From an uncultured Neomegalonema sp. (GTDB taxonomy: Bacteria; Pseudomonadota; Alphaproteobacteria; Rhodobacterales; Rhodobacteraceae), in NCBI GenBank assembly GCA_937958625.1, contig CALGNO010000057.1, forward strand, positions 1-32,520: DNA of 32,520 bases, in the 5' to 3' direction. A program made the translations under genes and the position numbers. This document shows, in pieces, positions 2,670 through 11,050 of this stretch. Each line of letters begins with the position of its first letter. Position 1 is the stretch's first letter. A model generated the notes under the pieces. It saw only the letters and a list, made by a program, of their open reading frames with translations. It did not search any database and was not told the DNA's origin.

Positions 2670-3794
2670 ATGCCCCGTCTGACCGCCCTCGCCGCTCTGT
2701 TCGCCTTCACTTTGCCGATGCAGGCGCACGCCTTCAGTGTGACCGGCACCAACGGTACACAGTTGAACGCCGCGGTGATCGAGACCTTCTCCGAACCCTG
2801 GGCCATGACCTTCCTGCCCGATGGCCGCGCGCTGGTGACGGAAAAGACCGGCACGATCTGGCTGACCGACCGGCAGGGGCGAAAACTCGGCACGATCTCC
2901 GGCGTTCCGCAGGTTTCCGCGCGTGGGCAGGGCGGTCTCGGCGACATCATCCTGCACCCGGACCATGCCAGCAACGGCATCGTCTATATCTCGTATGTCG
3001 AGCGCGATCCGGGCAATGACAGCCTCAGCGGCGCAGCGGTCATGCGCGCCACGCTCACGGCGGGTGCAAATGGCGGTTCTCTGTCGGGCGGCGAGGTGAT
3101 CTGGCGGCAAGCGCCGAAAGTCACCGGCAATGGTCATTACGGGCATCGCATGGCGTTCTCGCCCGACGGCCATCTGTTCATCACCTCGGGTGAGCGACAG
3201 AAATTCACCCCGGCCCAGAATATGGCGATGAACCTCGGCAAGGTCATTCGCCTGACCGATACCGGGGCCGTCCCCGCCGATAACCCGTTCGTGGGACAAG
3301 GCGGCGTGACCGCGCAGATCTGGTCCCTCGGCCATCGTAACCCGCTCGGCATCGACTTTGACGCCAGCGGCCAGCTTTGGGCGCATGAGATGGGGCCGCG
3401 CGACGGCGACGAACTCAACCGCATCGTCCGGGCCGAGAATTACGGCTACCCCGAGGTTTCTGACGGCAAGCATTACAGCGGCGCGCCGATCCCTGACCAC
3501 GCGACCGACCCAACCTACAAGGCCCCGGCAAAGTCGTGGGTGCCCGCAATCAGTCCGGCGGGCTTCGTCATCTATGACGGTGCAGACTTCCCGGAATGGA
3601 ATGGCAATGGCTTGATTGGCGGTTTGTCCTCCCGCGCCCTCGTCCGCGTCACCTTGGCCGACCGCGCCACGGAGGCCGAACGCTTTAACTGGGGCGAGCG
3701 CGTCCGCGAGGTCGAGCAAGGCCCGAACGGCGAGCTTTACGTGCTGGAGGATGGCGCGCAGGGCCGGCTCATTCGCTTGCGACCAGCGCGGTGA
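2670..3794 (+). CDS. Periplasmic PQQ-dependent sugar dehydrogenase (soluble aldose dehydrogenase type)
   Basis: The protein is about 374 residues with a Sec signal peptide (MPRLTALAALFAFTLPMQAHA). The body is a six-bladed propeller of the soluble glucose/aldose dehydrogenase family (YliI/Asd), which oxidises sugars with PQQ and calcium. Family motifs visible in order are WAMTFLPDGRALVTEK, GGLGDIILHP, GHYGHRMAFSPDGHLFITSG (with the conserved His), SLGHRNPLGIDFD and HEMGPRDGDELN, an acidic segment expected at the calcium/PQQ site. ATG at 2670 has AAGGAGA 5 nt upstream; a longer reading frame to 2616 would hide the signal peptide. It lies 79 bp after the amidase gene and probably has its own promoter. 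It converges on the PIN-like toxin gene 12 bp away. Confidence 0.9.
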   Translation: MPRLTALAALFAFTLPMQAHAFSVTGTNGTQLNAAVIETFSEPWAMTFLPDGRALVTEKTGTIWLTDRQGRKLGTISGVPQVSARGQGGLGDIILHPDHASNGIVYISYVERDPGNDSLSGAAVMRATLTAGANGGSLSGGEVIWRQAPKVTGNGHYGHRMAFSPDGHLFITSGERQKFTPAQNMAMNLGKVIRLTDTGAVPADNPFVGQGGVTAQIWSLGHRNPLGIDFDASGQLWAHEMGPRDGDELNRIVRAENYGYPEVSDGKHYSGAPIPDHATDPTYKAPAKSWVPAISPAGFVIYDGADFPEWNGNGLIGGLSSRALVRVTLADRATEAERFNWGERVREVEQGPNGELYVLEDGAQGRLIRLRPAR

Positions 3795-3806
3795 CCCACG
3801 GGCGGA

Positions 3807-4208
3807 TCAAAACCGTATCGCCCGATACTTGGCGGTTTTATTGAGCGGGAGCCAGTATGCGCCGCGCTCTTGCAATGAGACCAGCTGATCAATGGCGTGC
3901 CAGTGCCAGAGAATTGTCGCGGTTTGTTGCAAGACAGGGAGCTTGCACACCGCTGGCCTCAGGAAAAATCCCGTCAGATTGGCGGCGAAATAGGCGTTTC
4001 GTTCGACGGGGTTCTTCAGAATCTTCATGTCGCCAGAAAATATCGTCCACCCGCCCTCGCGACCGAGGGTCGAAATCCATTCCGTATCTGCGGTTTTCGG
4101 AGAGAACTTGTCGCGCTTGCAGATCGCCGAAGACCCATCAGGGTCAACAACGACATTGATCGCACGGGCCATGAAGGGAGAGAGGTTATGGTCGAAAAAG
4201 GCTTTCAC
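3807..4208 (-). CDS. PIN-like (DUF5615-type) putative toxin
   Basis: This 133-residue protein begins with FFDHNLSP and has ADTEWISTLGREGGWTIFSGD followed by MKILKNPVERNAYF. That pattern of spaced acidic residues belongs to the PIN-like DUF5615 family, presumed RNases that act as toxins. The start is GTG at 4208, overlapping the stop of the upstream DUF433 gene by four bases (GTGA), so translation is probably coupled to the antitoxin. It converges on the PQQ dehydrogenase gene. Base composition is clearly lower in GC than the neighbours, fitting recent acquisition. The toxin role rests on family and pairing, not on direct evidence. Confidence 0.72.
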   Translation of the reverse strand: MKAFFDHNLSPFMARAINVVVDPDGSSAICKRDKFSPKTADTEWISTLGREGGWTIFSGDMKILKNPVERNAYFAANLTGFFLRPAVCKLPVLQQTATILWHWHAIDQLVSLQERGAYWLPLNKTAKYRAIRF

Positions 4209-4885
4209 GCCGCAAGGTTTTGCTCGAACGCGACAGCATCACGAATTTGAGATACCGGAACATCGAAATACTTTGCGACAGCCTTTTCCGATCCTTCGGC
4301 CTCGACACTGCGGGCAATCGCGTCGGTCGGAATATCAAAGGCTGCGAGAACCGGTTTCCCAAAGGCGATCTTCGGGTCGAGGACGATGGTTCGTTTCCGT
4401 GGTTGCGGCCAGAAACGCTCTGCATTGCGTTCGCCGTATTCGATTGACTTCAAAACCGGCGAAATCGTTTCGCGGAAGACGGTCTGACCTCGATTGCGCC
4501 GGGAAACAGTCAGTACACCGTCGGGCAGGTCGAGAAAGACGTCATTGCCCGCCGTTTTGAAGTCACTGGTGGAAAAGGGACGCTCATCCCCGATCTGCAC
4601 CCGCGCATAATCCATGGTCCCGCGCAATTCCTGCAACGAAAAGCCTGCTTTACGAAGAGCGTGGACCACGCGGGCCTCCATCAGGTCTCGAAAACCCATC
4701 AAAAAGCCGTCGAAGTTCGTGCTGTGCTGTGATTGCCAAAGACGATCATTACGCGCGGTGCCTTGCATCCAACGGCGCAGGCTACTCGCGGGGATGCGGG
4801 TGAGGCGCTGTGCCTCAGCCGGTGAATAAACACCGATTCCCACACCCTTGAGCGCAGAATCTGCCATTGTTTGCGTACCATCCAT
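4205..4885 (-). CDS. HTH/DUF433 putative antitoxin
   Basis: The 226-residue protein has a MerR-like helix-turn-helix near residues 18-42 ([20 protein letters not shown]) and a C-terminal DUF433 domain near 167-222 ([19 protein letters not shown], then [19 protein letters not shown]). DUF433 proteins are commonly encoded just upstream of PIN-like DUF5615 proteins as the antitoxin and probable autorepressor; here the two genes overlap by four bases. The start is uncertain: ATG at 4885 or ATG at 4867, neither with a strong ribosome-binding site. It is divergent from aroC, with only 54 bp between starts, so its operator may affect aroC transcription. GC by hand is about 53 percent over 4201-4320. 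Confidence 0.75.
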
Positions 4886-4939
4886 GGCGTCAGTGAATCA
4901 GGTTGGATAGAGTACCGCAAGACCGATTCCGGAGTCCCC

Positions 4940-6262
4940 ATGTCGTTCAATACCTTCGGCCATCTTTTCCGCGTCACCACTTGGGGTGAGAGCCACGGGC
5001 CTGCACTGGGTTGCACCGTTGACGGGTGCCCGCCGGGGGTGGCGGTGGATGAGGCATCGATCCAGCAATGGCTCGACCTGCGCAAACCCGGCACCAGCAA
5101 ATACGTCACCCAGCGGCGGGAGCCGGATCAGGTGCGGATTCTCTCCGGCGTCTTCGAGGGCCAGACGACGGGCACGCCGATCCAGTTGATGATCGAGAAT
5201 ACCGACCAGCGGTCCAAGGACTACGGCGAGATCAAGAACCAGTTTCGCCCCGGCCATGCCGACTACACCTATTTCACCAAATACGGCATCCGCGACTATC
5301 GCGGCGGCGGGCGGTCTTCGGCGCGGGAGACCGCGGCGCGGGTCGCGGCGGGTGGCATTGCGCGGGCGGTGCTGGCCGAGATGCTGCCCGGTGCGCGCGT
5401 GCGCGGCGCGCTGGTGCAGATGGGCGAGCGCCATGTGGACCGGGAACGCTGGGACTGGGATCAGGTGAGCCAGAACCCGTTCTGGTGTCCCGACCCGGTC
5501 GCGGCCACGGAGTGGGAGACCTATCTCGACGGCATCCGCAAGGATCACGACTCCGTCGGCGCGGTGGTCGAGGTGGTGGCGACGGGCATCCCTGCGGGTC
5601 TCGGCGCGCCGGTCTATGCCAAGCTGGATACCGATCTGGCGGCGGCGATGATGTCGATCAATGCGGTCAAGGGCGTCGAAATCGGCGACGGTTTCGCTTC
5701 CGCCGCCCTGCGCGGGTCGGACAATGCCGATGAGATACGGATGGGCGACGACCTCGTTGAATGGACAGTTCAATCAGCGGGGGTCACCGAAAGTGGCGTT
5801 TACACAGCAGAAATCTCCCGGACTGATGGTAGAATCGAGAGATGTTATCTTGAGGCGCACCAAGTCGAATTCGTCTGCGAGAATTCAGATGGCAGCGTGA
5901 CGGTGCATCTGCTCCGAGACGAACTTGAACGGCGAAAGGTCGAAAACCGAGGACTCGATATCATTAGGTCGGGTGAACCCGTTTTCGGCTCGAACCATGC
6001 GGGTGGCATCCTCGGCGGCATATCTTCGGGTCAGGATCTGGTGGTCCGCTTTGCGGTCAAGCCGACCTCCTCGATCCTCACCCCGCGCCAGTCCATCGAC
6101 CGTTTCGGCAAGGAAGTCGAGATCGTCACCAAGGGCCGCCACGACCCCTGTGTCGGCATCCGCGCGGTGCCGGTCGGCGAGGCCATGGCCGCCTGCGTGA
6201 TTCTCGACCACCTGCTGCTGCATCGCGGCCAAGTGGGCGAGAATCGCGGTGTGTTAGGCTGA
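4940..6262 (+). CDS. aroC: Chorismate synthase, with an in-frame insert of about 75 residues
   Basis: AroC converts 5-enolpyruvylshikimate-3-phosphate to chorismate using reduced FMN, the last common step of aromatic biosynthesis. Signatures are intact: [19 protein letters not shown] at the N-terminus, [52 protein letters not shown] and [12 protein letters not shown] at 4940 has GGAG 6 nt upstream. The product is 440 residues against about 365 for the family. The excess is one block, about residues 270-344 (about 5747-5971), between DEIRMG and [12 protein letters not shown], where relatives have only a short loop. The insert keeps the frame and has no stop. Its composition is 52 percent GC by hand (104 of 200 at 5761-5960) against 60-67 percent in flanking 60-base lines. 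It has no recognisable intein motifs. Confidence 0.95.
5747..5971 (+). other. In-frame insert within aroC
   Basis: This is the segment of aroC not accounted for by the chorismate synthase family. It encodes about 75 residues including [33 protein letters not shown] and [17 protein letters not shown], which alternate in a way that suggests beta strands followed by a charged helix. It has no Cys/Ser start or His-Asn end of an intein and no clear flanking duplication. A short dyad (TTGAA at 5757, TTCAA at 5769) lies near its left edge. Boundaries are estimated from the family motifs to within a few residues. Confidence 0.75.
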
Positions 6263-6267
6263 CGGTT

Positions 6268-6281
6268 CCGGCCATTGCCGG
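6268..6281. terminator. Small hairpin between convergent aroC and csp
   Basis: The arms CCGGC and GCCGG enclose a CATT loop in the 37-bp gap between the convergent aroC and cold-shock genes. It has no U-rich tail on either strand, so it is at best a weak terminator. Confidence 0.3.
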
Positions 6282-6299
6282 TCAAATCGACCGCGCCGG

Positions 6300-6509
6300 T
6301 CAGTCCATCATCTGAAGTTCACCGGCGGAGCTGCGTCCCCGGCGGTCTTCGACCATCTCATACTGAATCTTCGCGTTTTCGGTGAGTGTCCGCATCCCTG
6401 CGGCCTCGACCGCCGAGATATGTACGAAGACATCGCCGCCGCCGGTATCGGGCTGGATAAACCCGTATCCCTTCTCGGAGTTGAACCACTTTACCGTTCC
6501 GGTTGGCAT
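6300..6509 (-). CDS. Cold-shock family protein (CspA-like)
   Basis: This 69-residue protein is a single cold-shock domain. It carries both RNA-binding motifs: KGYGFIQP (RNP1-like) and DVFVHISAV (RNP2-like), after the typical start [13 protein letters not shown]. Such proteins bind single-stranded RNA or DNA and act as RNA chaperones. The start ATG at 6509 has GGGAG about 10 nt upstream. It is the last gene in a long minus-strand run, but 122 bp separate it from the preceding gene, enough for its own promoter and leader. The C-terminus ([14 protein letters not shown]) is a little more polar than in E. coli CspA, as in alphaproteobacterial members. Confidence 0.95.
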
Positions 6510-6631
6510 GTTTGCCGCTCCCTAGCTCATTCGCTACTGCAACGTCGCGGGAAACGCGGTCAGGTCCGTCGTTCCCTGTACGACGTAGTTCGACTTACCA
6601 TAAACGCGAGCAACAGGCGACGGCTTTCTCG

Positions 6632-6850
6632 TTAGAGGATAAGCCCGACCACCAGACAGCCGAGGCCGAGGGACGCGATACCCACGGCGGCCATGTTGAC
6701 GGCAACCAGTGTTTGCAGTTCGGCCTGACCGTTTTCGGGGTCCGCCCCGCGCCGGATGGCCACTGCGCGCCAGATGCACCAGCCGAGCATGGCAAGGCCA
6801 ATAACGGCAAGCGCGCTGCCTCCCCAGATCATTCCGCTCGTCAGGGTCAT
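6632..6850 (-). CDS. Small two-helix membrane protein, unknown function
   Basis: The 72-residue product has two hydrophobic helices, roughly residues 7-31 (MIWGGSALAVIGLAMLGWCI) and 49-71 (VAVNMAAVGIASLGLGCLVV), joined by a polar loop with RRGADPENGQAELQ. It should be an inner-membrane hairpin protein. ATG at 6850 follows GAGGATGCC, a good ribosome-binding site, and lies 7 bp after the dehydrogenase stop, so it belongs to the same transcript as the pqi genes. I do not recognise a named family. Confidence 0.75.
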   Translation of the reverse strand: MTLTSGMIWGGSALAVIGLAMLGWCIWRAVAIRRGADPENGQAELQTLVAVNMAAVGIASLGLGCLVVGLIL

Positions 6851-6857
6851 GGCATCC

Positions 6858-7547
6858 TCAAAACGGCATCGCCGCGCCGGTATAGGTCTCGAAAACCCCG
6901 GTGGTTTCCAGCGACAGCACCTCGAACCGGTCGAGCAGGCCCCGGGCGCTTTCTTCTGCCGACAGATCGGCCCCGTCGCCGCCCATATCCGTGCGCACCC
7001 ATCCCGGATGATAGGAGCCGACGGCGATGCCGCGTGGCTTTAACTCGGTCGCGAGGTTGCTCGCCACATTGGTCGCCCCGGCCTTGGAGGCGCGATACGG
7101 ATAAGCATTGCCGCCCGCGCGCGCATTCGATCCCATTTGCGAGGAGATGATGGCGATGCGCGGATTGGTGCCGCGTTCGAGGTTGGGCAGAATCGCCTGT
7201 GCCGTCAGGAACGGCCCGGCGACATTGACCGTCAGCGCGTGTTGCCACGCTGCCAGATCATGCCCCTCATCCTCGACACCGCCGCGCGCGGTCATCACCC
7301 CGGCATTGAGAATGGCAAGATCAATCGGCTCAGGCGTCTCGGCTGCAAAGGCCAGCAGGCTGGCAGTATCGGCGACATCGAGCGCCCGCACGCTCAGGTC
7401 GTTTGTGATCCGCGTCATCGCGTTCAGCGCGGTCGCGTTTTCCGGGTCGCGCGCCGTGGCGATGACCGTATGGCCATCGGCAAGGGCAAAGCGCGTCATT
7501 TCGAGGCCGATGCCCCGGTTTGCGCCGGTAATCAGGATGGTGCTCAT
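6858..7547 (-). CDS. Short-chain dehydrogenase/reductase (SDR)
   Basis: This is a 229-residue Rossmann-fold oxidoreductase. Visible motifs are the cofactor glycine motif TGANRGIG near residue 7, the structural LNAGV motif near 84, the catalytic Ser in IISSQMG and the YRASK catalytic Tyr/Lys pair. The Arg in ATARD after the second strand suggests NADP(H). The region resembles the C-factor/CsgA-type SDR branch, but the substrate is not identifiable. ATG at 7547 has TGAGGA upstream overlapping the end of pqiC; a longer frame to 7712 runs through pqiC and is rejected. Its place directly behind pqiC suggests co-transcription, not necessarily a role in lipid transport. Confidence 0.9.
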   Translation of the reverse strand: MSTILITGANRGIGLEMTRFALADGHTVIATARDPENATALNAMTRITNDLSVRALDVADTASLLAFAAETPEPIDLAILNAGVMTARGGVEDEGHDLAAWQHALTVNVAGPFLTAQAILPNLERGTNPRIAIISSQMGSNARAGGNAYPYRASKAGATNVASNLATELKPRGIAVGSYHPGWVRTDMGGDGADLSAEESARGLLDRFEVLSLETTGVFETYTGAAMPF

Positions 7548-7554
7548 GGCTTCC

Positions 7555-8133
7555 TCAGGAATTGGCGGCGGTGATGCGCAGGGCGATCTCTTCGGCCAGC
7601 TTGGCGATGGCGCGGGAATGGGCCTCGGCCAGTGCCTTGTATCCCGGCGCATCGATGGGGATGCGATAGGTAAAGCTGCTCTGGTCGCCGTCACCGCCCC
7701 CGGCACGCACAATGCGATATTGGCCGCTGAGTTCGAGGGTGCCGCCGGTCAGGTCGCCGATAAAGCGGTCCACGGCAACATCGACACGCACCGCCGGGGT
7801 GACCGTCGCGGGCCAAGGCTCGGCCACCAGCGGCGCACCGGTGAGTTGTTTCAGCGCCGCGACCAGCGCGCGGGTGGCGGCGCGGGGCGGTTCGTCAGCC
7901 CAGCGGTTCGAGTCAGAGACATCAACCGACCCGTCCTCGTTCAACGAGGCGAATTCCAGCAGGCGGGCATAGAGCGGCAACTCCATCTCGCGCACCGCAA
8001 TCGTGCCGCCGGTGAAGGGCGTTCCCGCCGATACTTCGGGCGTTGGCAGCAGATAGTAGGAGGGCAGCGCCGTCTCGGCACAGCCGGCCAACGTGACCAG
8101 TGCCCCGAGGGCCAAGGCTCGCAATCGTCTCAT
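7555..8133 (-). CDS. pqiC: ABC-type transport auxiliary lipoprotein, PqiC-like (DUF330)
   Basis: The 192-residue protein has a lipoprotein signal peptide, MRRLRALALGALVTLAGC, with lipobox LAGC, followed by PSYYLLPTPEV, a typical start for the PqiC/DUF330 family. In E. coli, PqiC is an outer-membrane lipoprotein that forms a ring contacting the end of the PqiB needle. ATG at 8133 begins one base after the pqiB stop, with GGGGAAATAGG upstream, so it is tightly coupled to pqiB. Gene order (pqiA, pqiB, pqiC) supports the call more strongly than the diverged sequence. Confidence 0.88.
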   Translation of the reverse strand: MRRLRALALGALVTLAGCAETALPSYYLLPTPEVSAGTPFTGGTIAVREMELPLYARLLEFASLNEDGSVDVSDSNRWADEPPRAATRALVAALKQLTGAPLVAEPWPATVTPAVRVDVAVDRFIGDLTGGTLELSGQYRIVRAGGGDGDQSSFTYRIPIDAPGYKALAEAHSRAIAKLAEEIALRITAANS

Positions 8134-8134
8134 C

Positions 8135-11050
8135 CTATTTCCCCAGCAAGAGTACATTGGGCCGCCGCTCGACGGTCGAGGCCAGCGTGGTAATCGCCCG
8201 CGCAGCATCGCGCACTTCGCGCAGGGCGGTCACGGCCTCATAATTCAGTTCAGACCCGACCTCGACCGAGGACAGCACCGAATCGACGCGATCCGCTACC
8301 GAGGCCAGTCGCGGGATCAGGATGGCGAGATTGCGGGTCAGGGCCTGGAAGGACTCGCCCGCCCCGGCCACGGAAACCAGCGCGCCGTTTACATTGGTCG
8401 CCGTGCCGCTCTGGCGCAGCTCGATCACCAGCGAGCGCACCTGATCCAGCGCGGCGGTGATCGAGCCGGGGATTTGCTCGGCCCCCGGTGCACGCAGAAT
8501 GCGGTCTGCGTCCTGCATCACCATGGTGGTCGAGGCCAGCAGCCCTTCGATAGGCAGGGCATTGGCCTTGTCGGCAAGCTGAGTCAGGCGCGCGGTCAGG
8601 GCCGGGATGCCCGCAATCGCCGTGCCTGCGCTGTCAGCGGCTCCGCGTGCGGCGACCAGCGCATCGGCCAGCTTTTGAGCGGTATCGGCTCGTTCCAGAT
8701 CGACCATCAGGGCGCGGGCGGCGTTAAGCGTATCGGCGAGGGCTTGCGGCGCGGCCTGCATCCCGTCGCTGGCCACCAACGAATTCGCATCGGCAATCAG
8801 GCTCTCGACCGAGGCGACGACGTCGTTCAGGGGCAGGTTCTCGACATTCGCGGCGATGGCATTGAAACGCCCGATCAGTTCCGGCGTGCCCTCGGCGGCG
8901 CGGCTGAAGGCGGTGGCGGCATCGCGGGCGGCTTGCAAGGCTTCGGACAGGTTTTGCGCCGCGTTTGCGTCTTTCAGATCGACCAGCAGGGCGCGCGCCG
9001 CATCAAGGGTCTGGGCCAGTGCCTCCGGTGCCTGTTGCATCCCGTCGCTGGCCATCAGGCGATCGGCATTCTCGACGATGCTGGTGGCGGCGAGGATCAG
9101 ATCCTCCAGCGGCAGCTCGTTTACGGTATCGGCGATGCCGGTCATCGTGCTGACCATGCCGGGGATGTTCACCGACGCTGCCGTGACGGTATTCGCCGCC
9201 TCGCGCGAGGCAATCAGAACGGATTCGAGGGTCTTCGCCGTCTCGGCCTCGCGCAGGCCTTCGAGGATTTCACGCAGGTTGCGGATGCTGGCATTCAGGT
9301 TGGCCGGGATTTCGGCCATGCCCTCGGCAGCGACCACCTTGTCGGCGTTGTCCAATAGGGTCGTCGCAGTACTGACGAGATCGGTCAGCGGCAACTCGGT
9401 CAACTCGGTCGACAGCGCCGTGGCCGAAGCGAGGAAAAGCGGCACCGTTTCGGTCGCGGTCGTGATTGCCTGCGCCGCCGCGCTCGCATCCTCCAGCGCG
9501 GCTACGAGGGCCTCAGCCGTTCCCGCGTCGCGAACCTGTTCCATCAACTCGCGGGCGGCGGCGAGGGTCGCGGCCAGATCAACCGGCGCTTCGCGCAAGC
9601 CGGGGCTGCCGATAAGATCGCGCGCATCCTGCAACAGATCGGAGACCTGACCGGGAACGGCGGCAGTGGATTCTGCACTGGCGAGGGCATTGAGATTGCG
9701 CAACAATTCCGTCGCCGAATACATCATGTCTTCGATGGGCAGATTGTTGATCCGGTTCAGCACGCCCTCGGCAGAAGCCGTGAAATCCTCGAAATCCGAC
9801 GGAACGCTCGGCATTCGCGGATGGGGTTCGGCGAGTTCATCCAGCAGGGCGACATCGGCGTTCGGCTGTTCAACCAATTCGACGAAAAGCGACCCGGTCA
9901 GAAGGCTGGCACTTTTCAGCCGCGCGCGCAGGCCCCGGCGCACGGCGCGCTGCATGAAAGCGATGGAATCCTCGCGCTGATTGGCTTCAAAGCCGAGCCG
10001 GGCAGGCGAAATCACGATGGTCACGATCAGCGAGATGGCCTGATCGCCGTCGGTATCATTGCGCAGATTGGCGGCAACATTCGTCACCTCGCCGATGCGC
10101 AACCCGCGATATTCGACCGGCGCGCCGATATCGAGACCGCGCACGGAGCTTTCGAATTCGACGCTGAGGCGCAGTTGCGAGCCGGGTTGATCGACAAAGG
10201 CACTGCGCCGCGCCTCTTCTTCGCCCTGATAAAGCACGAAGGAATGGAGCGGCTCCAGCGGCGCGCCATCGGTTGTCACCGTCTCGAAGGACACGCCCCC
10301 GCGCAGCAGGGAGGCGAGGGAATCGACCTTTAACTGGGCGCCATTGGTGCCGATTTCGACCGCGACGGCGGAGCGCATCCAGAACCGCGTCGCAGTGGTC
10401 AGCAGCTTGTCATAGGGGGCATCGACGAAGATGTCGAAATCGACCCGCTCGCCATCCTCGGACAGTTTCTTGCTCTCGACCCGCCCGACCTCGATGCGCT
10501 TATAAAGGATCGGCGCGCCCACGGTCATCGACCCGCCATCGGCGGCGCGCAGACGCAGGCGGATGCCGTCGTCGCTGGGTTTCGATAGTGGTGCGGTTTT
10601 CAGAGCGGTGAATTTGCGGCGCGGCTTGCCCCGCTCGGAATCCCACGAAACCTCAAGATACGAGCCGGACAGAACGGTATCGAGGCCGCTGATGCCACGC
10701 GCCGTCACTTCGGGCCGCACGACCCAGAACGCGGCGGATTGGTCCAGATAAGGCGCGATTTCGTTTTCGACCCGCACTTCGGCGCGGACTTTTTCGAGGT
10801 TGTCGGTAAAGCCGATATCCTCGACGACGCCGACCTCGACATCCTTGTGCTTCAGCACGGTCTTGCCCGCTTCCAGACCCGAAGCGCTTTCGAGGATGAC
10901 CTCGACCAGCGGCCCCTTGTTCGACCACGAAGACCACGCAATGCCCAGCGAAATAGCGAGGGCGATCAGGGGCGCGAGCCAGACCATCGACAGGCGACCG
11001 CCGGATTGGGTTTCGCGCACGGGTTCGGCGACGCCGTTCGGATCACTCAT
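8135..11050 (-). CDS. pqiB: PqiB-like MCE protein with a repeat-extended C-terminus
   Basis: The 971-residue protein has one N-terminal transmembrane helix (about residues 22-41, SMVWLAPLIALAISLGIAWS), then three MCE domains near 46-145, 162-255 and 292-395; each has the pattern of a V-x-Y/H-K/R-G/D segment followed by I/V-G-x-V (KHKDVEVGVV, LYKRIEVGRV, EYRGLRIGEV). E. coli PqiB has the same plan in about 546 residues and forms a hexameric tunnel that carries lipids between the membranes. Here the region after residue 430 is about 540 residues, mostly Ala/Leu-rich helices with a 93-residue repeat. The gene overlaps pqiA2 by 8 bases and abuts pqiC. Family identity is clear; the length is unusual. 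Confidence 0.93.
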   Translation of the reverse strand: MSDPNGVAEPVRETQSGGRLSMVWLAPLIALAISLGIAWSSWSNKGPLVEVILESASGLEAGKTVLKHKDVEVGVVEDIGFTDNLEKVRAEVRVENEIAPYLDQSAAFWVVRPEVTARGISGLDTVLSGSYLEVSWDSERGKPRRKFTALKTAPLSKPSDDGIRLRLRAADGGSMTVGAPILYKRIEVGRVESKKLSEDGERVDFDIFVDAPYDKLLTTATRFWMRSAVAVEIGTNGAQLKVDSLASLLRGGVSFETVTTDGAPLEPLHSFVLYQGEEEARRSAFVDQPGSQLRLSVEFESSVRGLDIGAPVEYRGLRIGEVTNVAANLRNDTDGDQAISLIVTIVISPARLGFEANQREDSIAFMQRAVRRGLRARLKSASLLTGSLFVELVEQPNADVALLDELAEPHPRMPSVPSDFEDFTASAEGVLNRINNLPIEDMMYSATELLRNLNALASAESTAAVPGQVSDLLQDARDLIGSPGLREAPVDLAATLAAARELMEQVRDAGTAEALVAALEDASAAAQAITTATETVPLFLASATALSTELTELPLTDLVSTATTLLDNADKVVAAEGMAEIPANLNASIRNLREILEGLREAETAKTLESVLIASREAANTVTAASVNIPGMVSTMTGIADTVNELPLEDLILAATSIVENADRLMASDGMQQAPEALAQTLDAARALLVDLKDANAAQNLSEALQAARDAATAFSRAAEGTPELIGRFNAIAANVENLPLNDVVASVESLIADANSLVASDGMQAAPQALADTLNAARALMVDLERADTAQKLADALVAARGAADSAGTAIAGIPALTARLTQLADKANALPIEGLLASTTMVMQDADRILRAPGAEQIPGSITAALDQVRSLVIELRQSGTATNVNGALVSVAGAGESFQALTRNLAILIPRLASVADRVDSVLSSVEVGSELNYEAVTALREVRDAARAITTLASTVERRPNVLLLGK
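8276..9763 (-). repeat. Tandem protein repeats of 93 residues in PqiB
   Basis: The anchor proline of an LP-x-x-D/G motif occurs at residues 438 (NLPIED), 554 (ELPLTD), 647 (ELPLED), 740 (NLPLND) and 833 (ALPIEG). The last four are spaced exactly 93, 93 and 93 residues; the first interval is 116. A second anchor repeats in phase: SDGMQQAPEALAQTLDAARA at 668 and SDGMQAAPQALADTLNAARA at 761, with weaker forms at 575 and 854. The units are helical and diverged, so this is an old protein-level duplication rather than a fresh DNA repeat. Confidence 0.9.

Follow-up and report, generated by a model that had tools for sequence, protein, structure and literature searches.

The window, the whole stretch of 32,520 nucleotides that was analysed, holds one chorismate synthase gene, aroC, whose reading frame starts with an ATG at 4940 and closes with a stop codon ending at 6262. 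Chorismate synthase is strongly conserved and essential in most bacteria. The features of the gene are as follows:

4940..6262, + strand: aroC, chorismate synthase with an insert, 440 residues (Pfam PF01264, E 9.2e-134; above the cut-offs of NCBIfam PRK05382 and TIGR00033)
4991..4996, + strand: Ser18-His19 (GESHG), invariant in 15 aligned AroCs
5255..5257, + strand: His106 of RPGHAD, invariant in 15 aligned AroCs
5711..5746, + strand: 12-residue 5' flank of the insert, colinear with insertless relatives by sequence comparison
5747..5971, + strand: in-frame insert of 75 residues, an orphan, predicted to be a small beta-rich domain by models of moderate to low confidence
5972..6019, + strand: 16-residue 3' flank, aligned with xDGPxFxSNHAGG of most insertless relatives
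6143..6145, + strand: Asp402 of GRHDP, invariant in 15 aligned AroCs

Two genes on the - strand (3807-4885) encode a PIN_10-domain protein and a MerR-like/DUF433 protein, in an arrangement like that of a toxin-antitoxin pair, and sit between the GSDH gene and aroC. In four members of the genus (L007-L010) GSDH lies next upstream of aroC, and the PIN_10 and MerR-like/DUF433 genes were not found in the flanks available. Further along, at 8135-11050 on the - strand, is the gene of a 971-residue protein that has MlaD domains and whose long C-terminal part by eye resembles degenerate repeats of about 90 residues.

At the site of interest the window reads NADEIRMG, then 75 residues without a stop in the aroC frame, then a 12-residue stretch on the DGP/SNHAGG side; insertless relatives mostly read NADE-x-x-MG-xDGP-x-F/Y-x-SNHAGG. 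The AroC match breaks off at residue 266-269 and restarts at 349 in the three PDB alignments shown; with Pfam and NCBIfam the best stretch runs on some residues into the insert, to 286-289. An earlier sequence-only reading had described a 440-residue AroC with an open, in-frame segment at 5747-5971, and had placed all of the excess in a turn that is short in relatives. Both descriptions hold: the coordinates are confirmed, profile and PDB matches break at the turn, and 28 insertless loci have it short.

We surveyed 61 genomes of relatives, the window's own (G000) included. AroC was matched in 53 of them and, by a count of the survey rows, a single contig holds both sides of the site in 51. There is no room for the insert at the site in 49 of these 51, as read directly from the sequence in 28 and judged from the distance between two matched pieces in the remainder. 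The possibility that most related AroCs share the segment is thereby refuted. The two carriers are G000 and G001 (Rhodobacteraceae bacterium MAG-169, JAHDDY010000065.1), which belongs to the same genus; locus L082 has the G001 insert and is the same record as G001, not a third witness. A search of 14 genomes of the genus gave a concordant count, with the site present in 12 and the insert in two of the 12; one other genome lacked an AroC match and one had only a 37-residue fragment. Both carrier genomes are drafts (G000, 258 contigs, 87% complete; G001, about 300 contigs, 98% complete). The G001 insert, which the sequence-only reading did not mention, has 76 residues and occupies the identical site. 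The aroC gene of G001 (L108, around 7288-8616) has a different neighbourhood, with FtsW-like and MurG-like genes by eye and GSDH not adjacent.

Genome contigs were also scanned for the two AroC motifs spaced 216-276 bases apart, a design that detects only inserts of about 65-85 codons and may omit the window's own record. With a short gap the same motifs recover 19 of the 28 insertless AroCs (L007-L034), so that perhaps two thirds of AroCs are visible to the scan. It returned 25 stretches, 18 of which read as AroC in frame: one with the homologous insert (L082), seven with an acidic insert from Lachnospiraceae, one with another insert (L089), and nine with the first motif upstream in the gene and a short turn. 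In the other seven the first motif lies outside the AroC frame. No homologous insert beyond L082 was found among the 18 in-frame stretches. The turn that precedes (S/T)NHAGG is thus enlarged in eight Lachnospiraceae loci too. The acidic type (L070, L073, L075, L077, L080, L083 and L090; five of the seven from Oribacterium) has a D/E content of 38% in L070 and 35% in L077, the two that were measured, and the insert of L089 is of a different, repetitive type. Aligned with the window insert, L070, L077 and L089 score within the range of shuffles. By sequence comparison, at least three unrelated segments have settled in the AroC turn, indicating that the turn tolerates insertions. Tolerance in the window is therefore unsurprising, and the conservation of its insert as protein is the more interesting property.

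That conservation is seen in the comparison between G000 and G001. Their inserts are 33% identical, in the same register and placed after the same residue. The local alignment score is 65, against 24.9 +- 4.7 for shuffled sequences (maximum 55; none of 5000 as high), and on this evidence the two inserts are homologous. The 72 codons that align show identities of 0.46 at position 1, 0.56 at position 2 and 0.29 at position 3; random re-pairing of the codons gives 0.31, 0.26 and 0.26, with standard deviations near 0.05. Positions 1 and 2 are thus conserved above chance and position 3 is not, indicating that the insert has been kept as protein. At the 48 sites where the residues differ, hydropathy is correlated as well (r 0.48; three of 5000 shuffles as high). 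These results, from two sequences only, point to protein-level selection on the insert, either inside AroC or in its donors. Selection while in AroC is what we infer, and the conservation could have built up in donors. One reverse frame of the two inserts scores 52 versus 65 for the coding frame; it was taken for a shadow of the coding frame, since it contains 3 and 1 stops.

Both inserts differ in base composition from their own host genes. The G000 insert has a GC content of 0.52 versus 0.664 in the remainder of aroC, in agreement with the 52% counted in the sequence-only reading, and its GC3 is 0.52 versus 0.827. None of 291 stretches of 75 codons in the G000 core is as low (minima: GC 0.60, GC3 0.72). 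Across the window as a whole, 4.4% of 225-nt windows have a GC content of 0.52 or less, so the contrast is strong inside aroC and not rare within the window. In G001 the insert has GC 0.623 and GC3 0.724 versus core minima of 0.662 and 0.893 (292 stretches). Atypical composition in both carriers fits the foreign origin proposed earlier, for which no donor was found.

Next, we examined whether AroC is likely to work with the insert in place. The catalytic Ser, His, His, Ser and Asp are presumably S18, H19, H106, S127 and D402 of the window protein; we take His106 to be equivalent to the FMN-protonating His110 of S. pneumoniae and Asp402 to Asp367 of N. crassa. All five are present in the window AroC and invariant in the 15 aligned AroCs. 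A review describes His110 of the S. pneumoniae chorismate synthase as the FMN-protonating histidine, and a role for Asp367 of the N. crassa enzyme (PMC3509576). Of the 158 columns at which 28 insertless AroCs agree without exception, each carrier deviates at a single one: in G000 this is residue 346, which lies in the realigned junction, and in G001 an L to M change at 359. By comparison, each insertless AroC departs from the other 27 at 0-10 columns. TIGR00033 found one AroC gene in G000 and one in G001, the former count leaving some room for a second copy in a genome 87% complete, and EPSP-synthase-family genes are present in both. Intact catalytic residues in the only AroC found fit an active enzyme. 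Activity with the insert in place, as the sequence-only reading supposed, is probable.

Structure prediction gave a picture of low to moderate confidence. An AF2 model of the whole protein (15 sequences) has a mean pLDDT of 80.3 and a pTM of 0.78, with the insert at 61-71 per ten-residue block. The block directly after the insert (351-360), containing the SNHAGG motif, has a pLDDT of 56, and residues 354-357 fall under 50; the model therefore gives no assurance that this flavin-side motif is undisturbed. A second model, of the insert with short flanks (two sequences), has a mean pLDDT of 63.2. The two runs agree on the order of elements in the insert: five strands, a short helix and a last strand. 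This suggests, with moderate to low confidence, a small beta-rich domain. In the whole-protein model strands 266-268 and 347-349 bracket the insert, and they would pair as a hairpin carrying it at the tip. A fold search with the insert-alone model (pLDDT 63) returned nothing significant in the PDB (best E 0.26, TM 0.21) or BFVD (best E 0.027, TM 0.48). Several small phage proteins with a fold probability near 1 were not counted, their E values being 0.03-0.2.

Relatives of the insert were then sought by sequence. Searching the 75 residues against protein families, as the sequence-only reading had proposed, gave no significant match: none in Pfam at E <= 10, none in NCBIfam for the window insert, and best E values of 0.038 and 0.16 in PHROGs. 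The best PDB match by sequence has E 0.24. DUF896 matched the G001 insert at E 0.014, with 15.4 bits versus a cut-off of 112, and was taken as chance. Peptide-pattern scans gave 104 stretches in genome contigs and 157 in viral contigs, of which none was confirmed; phages searched with the G000 insert and plasmids searched with the G001 insert gave no match. Neither carrier genome yielded a second copy, each containing one significant copy. The G000 insert alone matched 84 of 394 family genomes at E <= 1, and a two-row profile at E <= 0.05 matched five of 394 family and nine of 385 class genomes (own genome included in each count), with 12 matches outside its own genome. We read these 12 loci and seven of the E <= 1 loci, 17 of the 19 being readable (not L036 and L038). 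Judged by eye, the readable loci comprise RuvB, IF3, a PAS histidine kinase, an ABC ATPase, antisense frames and others, and they were rejected as relatives of the insert; L106, promising at first, is antisense to an apparent membrane-protein gene. IF3 was matched twice, at E 0.005 over profile positions 22-74 and at E 0.011 over positions 38-77 of 79, and was judged to be a chance match because the start of the insert is uncovered and Pfam gives no match. A duplication of AroC's own sequence was rejected as well, since shuffles scored as high as the insert against its own core in 282 of 500 cases (G000) and 442 of 500 (G001). A literature search on chorismate synthase and in-frame insertions, poor in its coverage of subscription journals, gave no paper on inserts in the AroC turn among the matches listed.

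Our preferred reading, to which we give a probability of about two in three, is that the insert is an accessory domain in a permissive turn of a working AroC, and that selection acts on it as protein in both carrier species of the one rhodobacterial genus. A small domain would have inserted into the turn (MG^xDGPxF), to be translated as part of a functional chorismate synthase with an unchanged catalytic core and to stand at the tip of a short hairpin or turn. It would most likely be a surface module that binds a partner, a ligand or a subunit of the tetramer, or that tunes stability; any such function is a guess, since no relative outside the two AroCs was found. The sequence-only reading had left the choice between a segment merely tolerated and one used, and two diverged copies conserved at the protein level favour use. 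The insert is probably a selected, lineage-restricted addition to a known enzyme, and the extra segment a working part rather than an error.

The accessory-domain reading is independent of whether the insert was gained once and lost two or three times, or gained twice. A protein tree built from 30 AroC cores places the two carriers in separate subclades, and the insert needs two changes on it. Both nucleotide trees make G000 the first branch of its five-member subclade (support for the other four members 98.8/100, and 93.4/91 from codon positions 1+2) and G001 the first branch of its seven-member subclade (85.3/80 and 79.9/73), the position of G001 being unresolved in the protein tree. First-branch placement of both carriers fits an old gain followed by losses. 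Rooted on L018, the nucleotide trees join the G001 subclade to insertless L033 and L016 of other genera (95.7/94 and 99/99), which would raise the losses required by a single gain to three; in the protein tree the G001 subclade is instead paired, with weak support, with the long-branched L031 (85/41). The carrier cores are 80% identical, versus 33% for the inserts, and this difference, together with insert compositions outside those of their own genes, fits later acquisitions. On either side of the insert, the adjacent flanks group by identity with the subclade of their carrier. Far upstream, in core columns 120-180, the carriers are slightly closer to each other than to their own subclades (0.90 and 0.78 versus 0.63-0.84). 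No private residue shared by the carrier cores was found within the genus, and there is thus no sign of co-adaptation between core and insert.

The same site in different subclades, atypical composition in both carriers, an insert divergence far above that of the host, and the two or three losses needed by a single old gain also suggest a bolder account, in which the inserts belong to a new family of small mobile protein-domain cassettes that enter this one turn repeatedly and in frame, stay unspliced and become working parts. We consider it unlikely. Improbable, too, is that foreign DNA entered the permissive turn in frame and persists as debris without a role. Such an origin would explain the low, atypical GC in both carriers, the absence of the insert from 49 of 51 relatives, the lack of a family match, and a turn that elsewhere takes unrelated, partly repetitive inserts. 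It does not readily explain why a second species carries a homologue of the insert at this site, conserved above all at codon positions 1 and 2. Debris would not keep its register, stay free of stops and match in hydropathy at 33% identity unless the conservation predates the insertion.

A mobile in-frame element that targets the AroC site and was acquired at least twice (an intein remnant, a ShiLan-like element or another homing cassette) seems to us equally unlikely. Such an element would fit one site occupied in two subclades, inserts far less alike than their cores, atypical composition in both genomes, a clean turn in insertless relatives, flank identities that follow each subclade, and nucleotide trees that make a single old gain costlier by joining one subclade to two other genera. 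The best PDB fold match is an intein (NpuDnaE), at values that are not significant and with a low-confidence model. In G001, five short two-copy direct repeats occur, three of which, imperfect, touch or flank an insert end; none is matched in the window, and we read them as probably due to chance. The window insert has no direct repeats at its ends, and a single 11-nt inverted pair (82% complementary) lies in the conserved flanks. Inteins start with Cys or Ser and end in HN followed by Cys, Ser or Thr. The inserts start with D (G000) or R (G001) and end in IRS|G and HGA|G, so that junction residues are absent from both, as had been reported for the window, and no Hint-type profile in Pfam or intein model in NCBIfam matches the insert. 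Further against mobility, no other frame is stop-free in both copies, neither genome has a second copy, all 12 weak profile matches (394 family and 385 class genomes) are unrelated by eye, and nothing was confirmed in viral contigs, in phages (G000 insert) or in plasmids (G001 insert).

A self-splicing intron or other RNA element, suggested by the size of the segment (about 225 nt) and its position in a conserved coding site, is very unlikely given the open frame and protein-level conservation in both species; in window 3500-8500 Rfam has two matches at E <= 1, both outside aroC and both to families other than introns. An assembly or sequencing artefact, conceivable in a draft of 258 contigs, is least probable of all, because a diverged in-frame homologue occupies the same site in a separate genome.

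Bearing signs of selection, such a natural insertion of a domain would show where chorismate synthase can be extended. With insertless close relatives as controls, it also offers a testable case of an orphan domain joining a housekeeping enzyme. Compared with chorismate synthases of known structure (PDB 5z9a, 4lj2 and 1qxo), the window AroC has the whole core and the checked catalytic residues in common; the turn is a few residues long in the aligned PDB proteins and in the 28 insertless loci of the genus, family and class, and has 75 extra residues in the window. AroCs of Oribacterium and related Lachnospiraceae have inserts in the same turn, but of unrelated, acidic or repetitive sequence. 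Inteins and mini-inteins likewise interrupt a conserved site of an essential enzyme in frame, but their splice-junction residues and family match are absent from the window insert, which is shorter than any intein known to us. It also differs from the dispersed in-frame repeats of the Rickettsia type, there being one significant copy each in G000 and G001. In behaviour, the published analogue nearest to the window insert is the ShiLan element, which is in frame, stop-free and without intein or intron features like the window insert, but hides an HNH endonuclease in another frame and has a phage methylase as its host, where the window insert has a housekeeping enzyme (PMC11855218).
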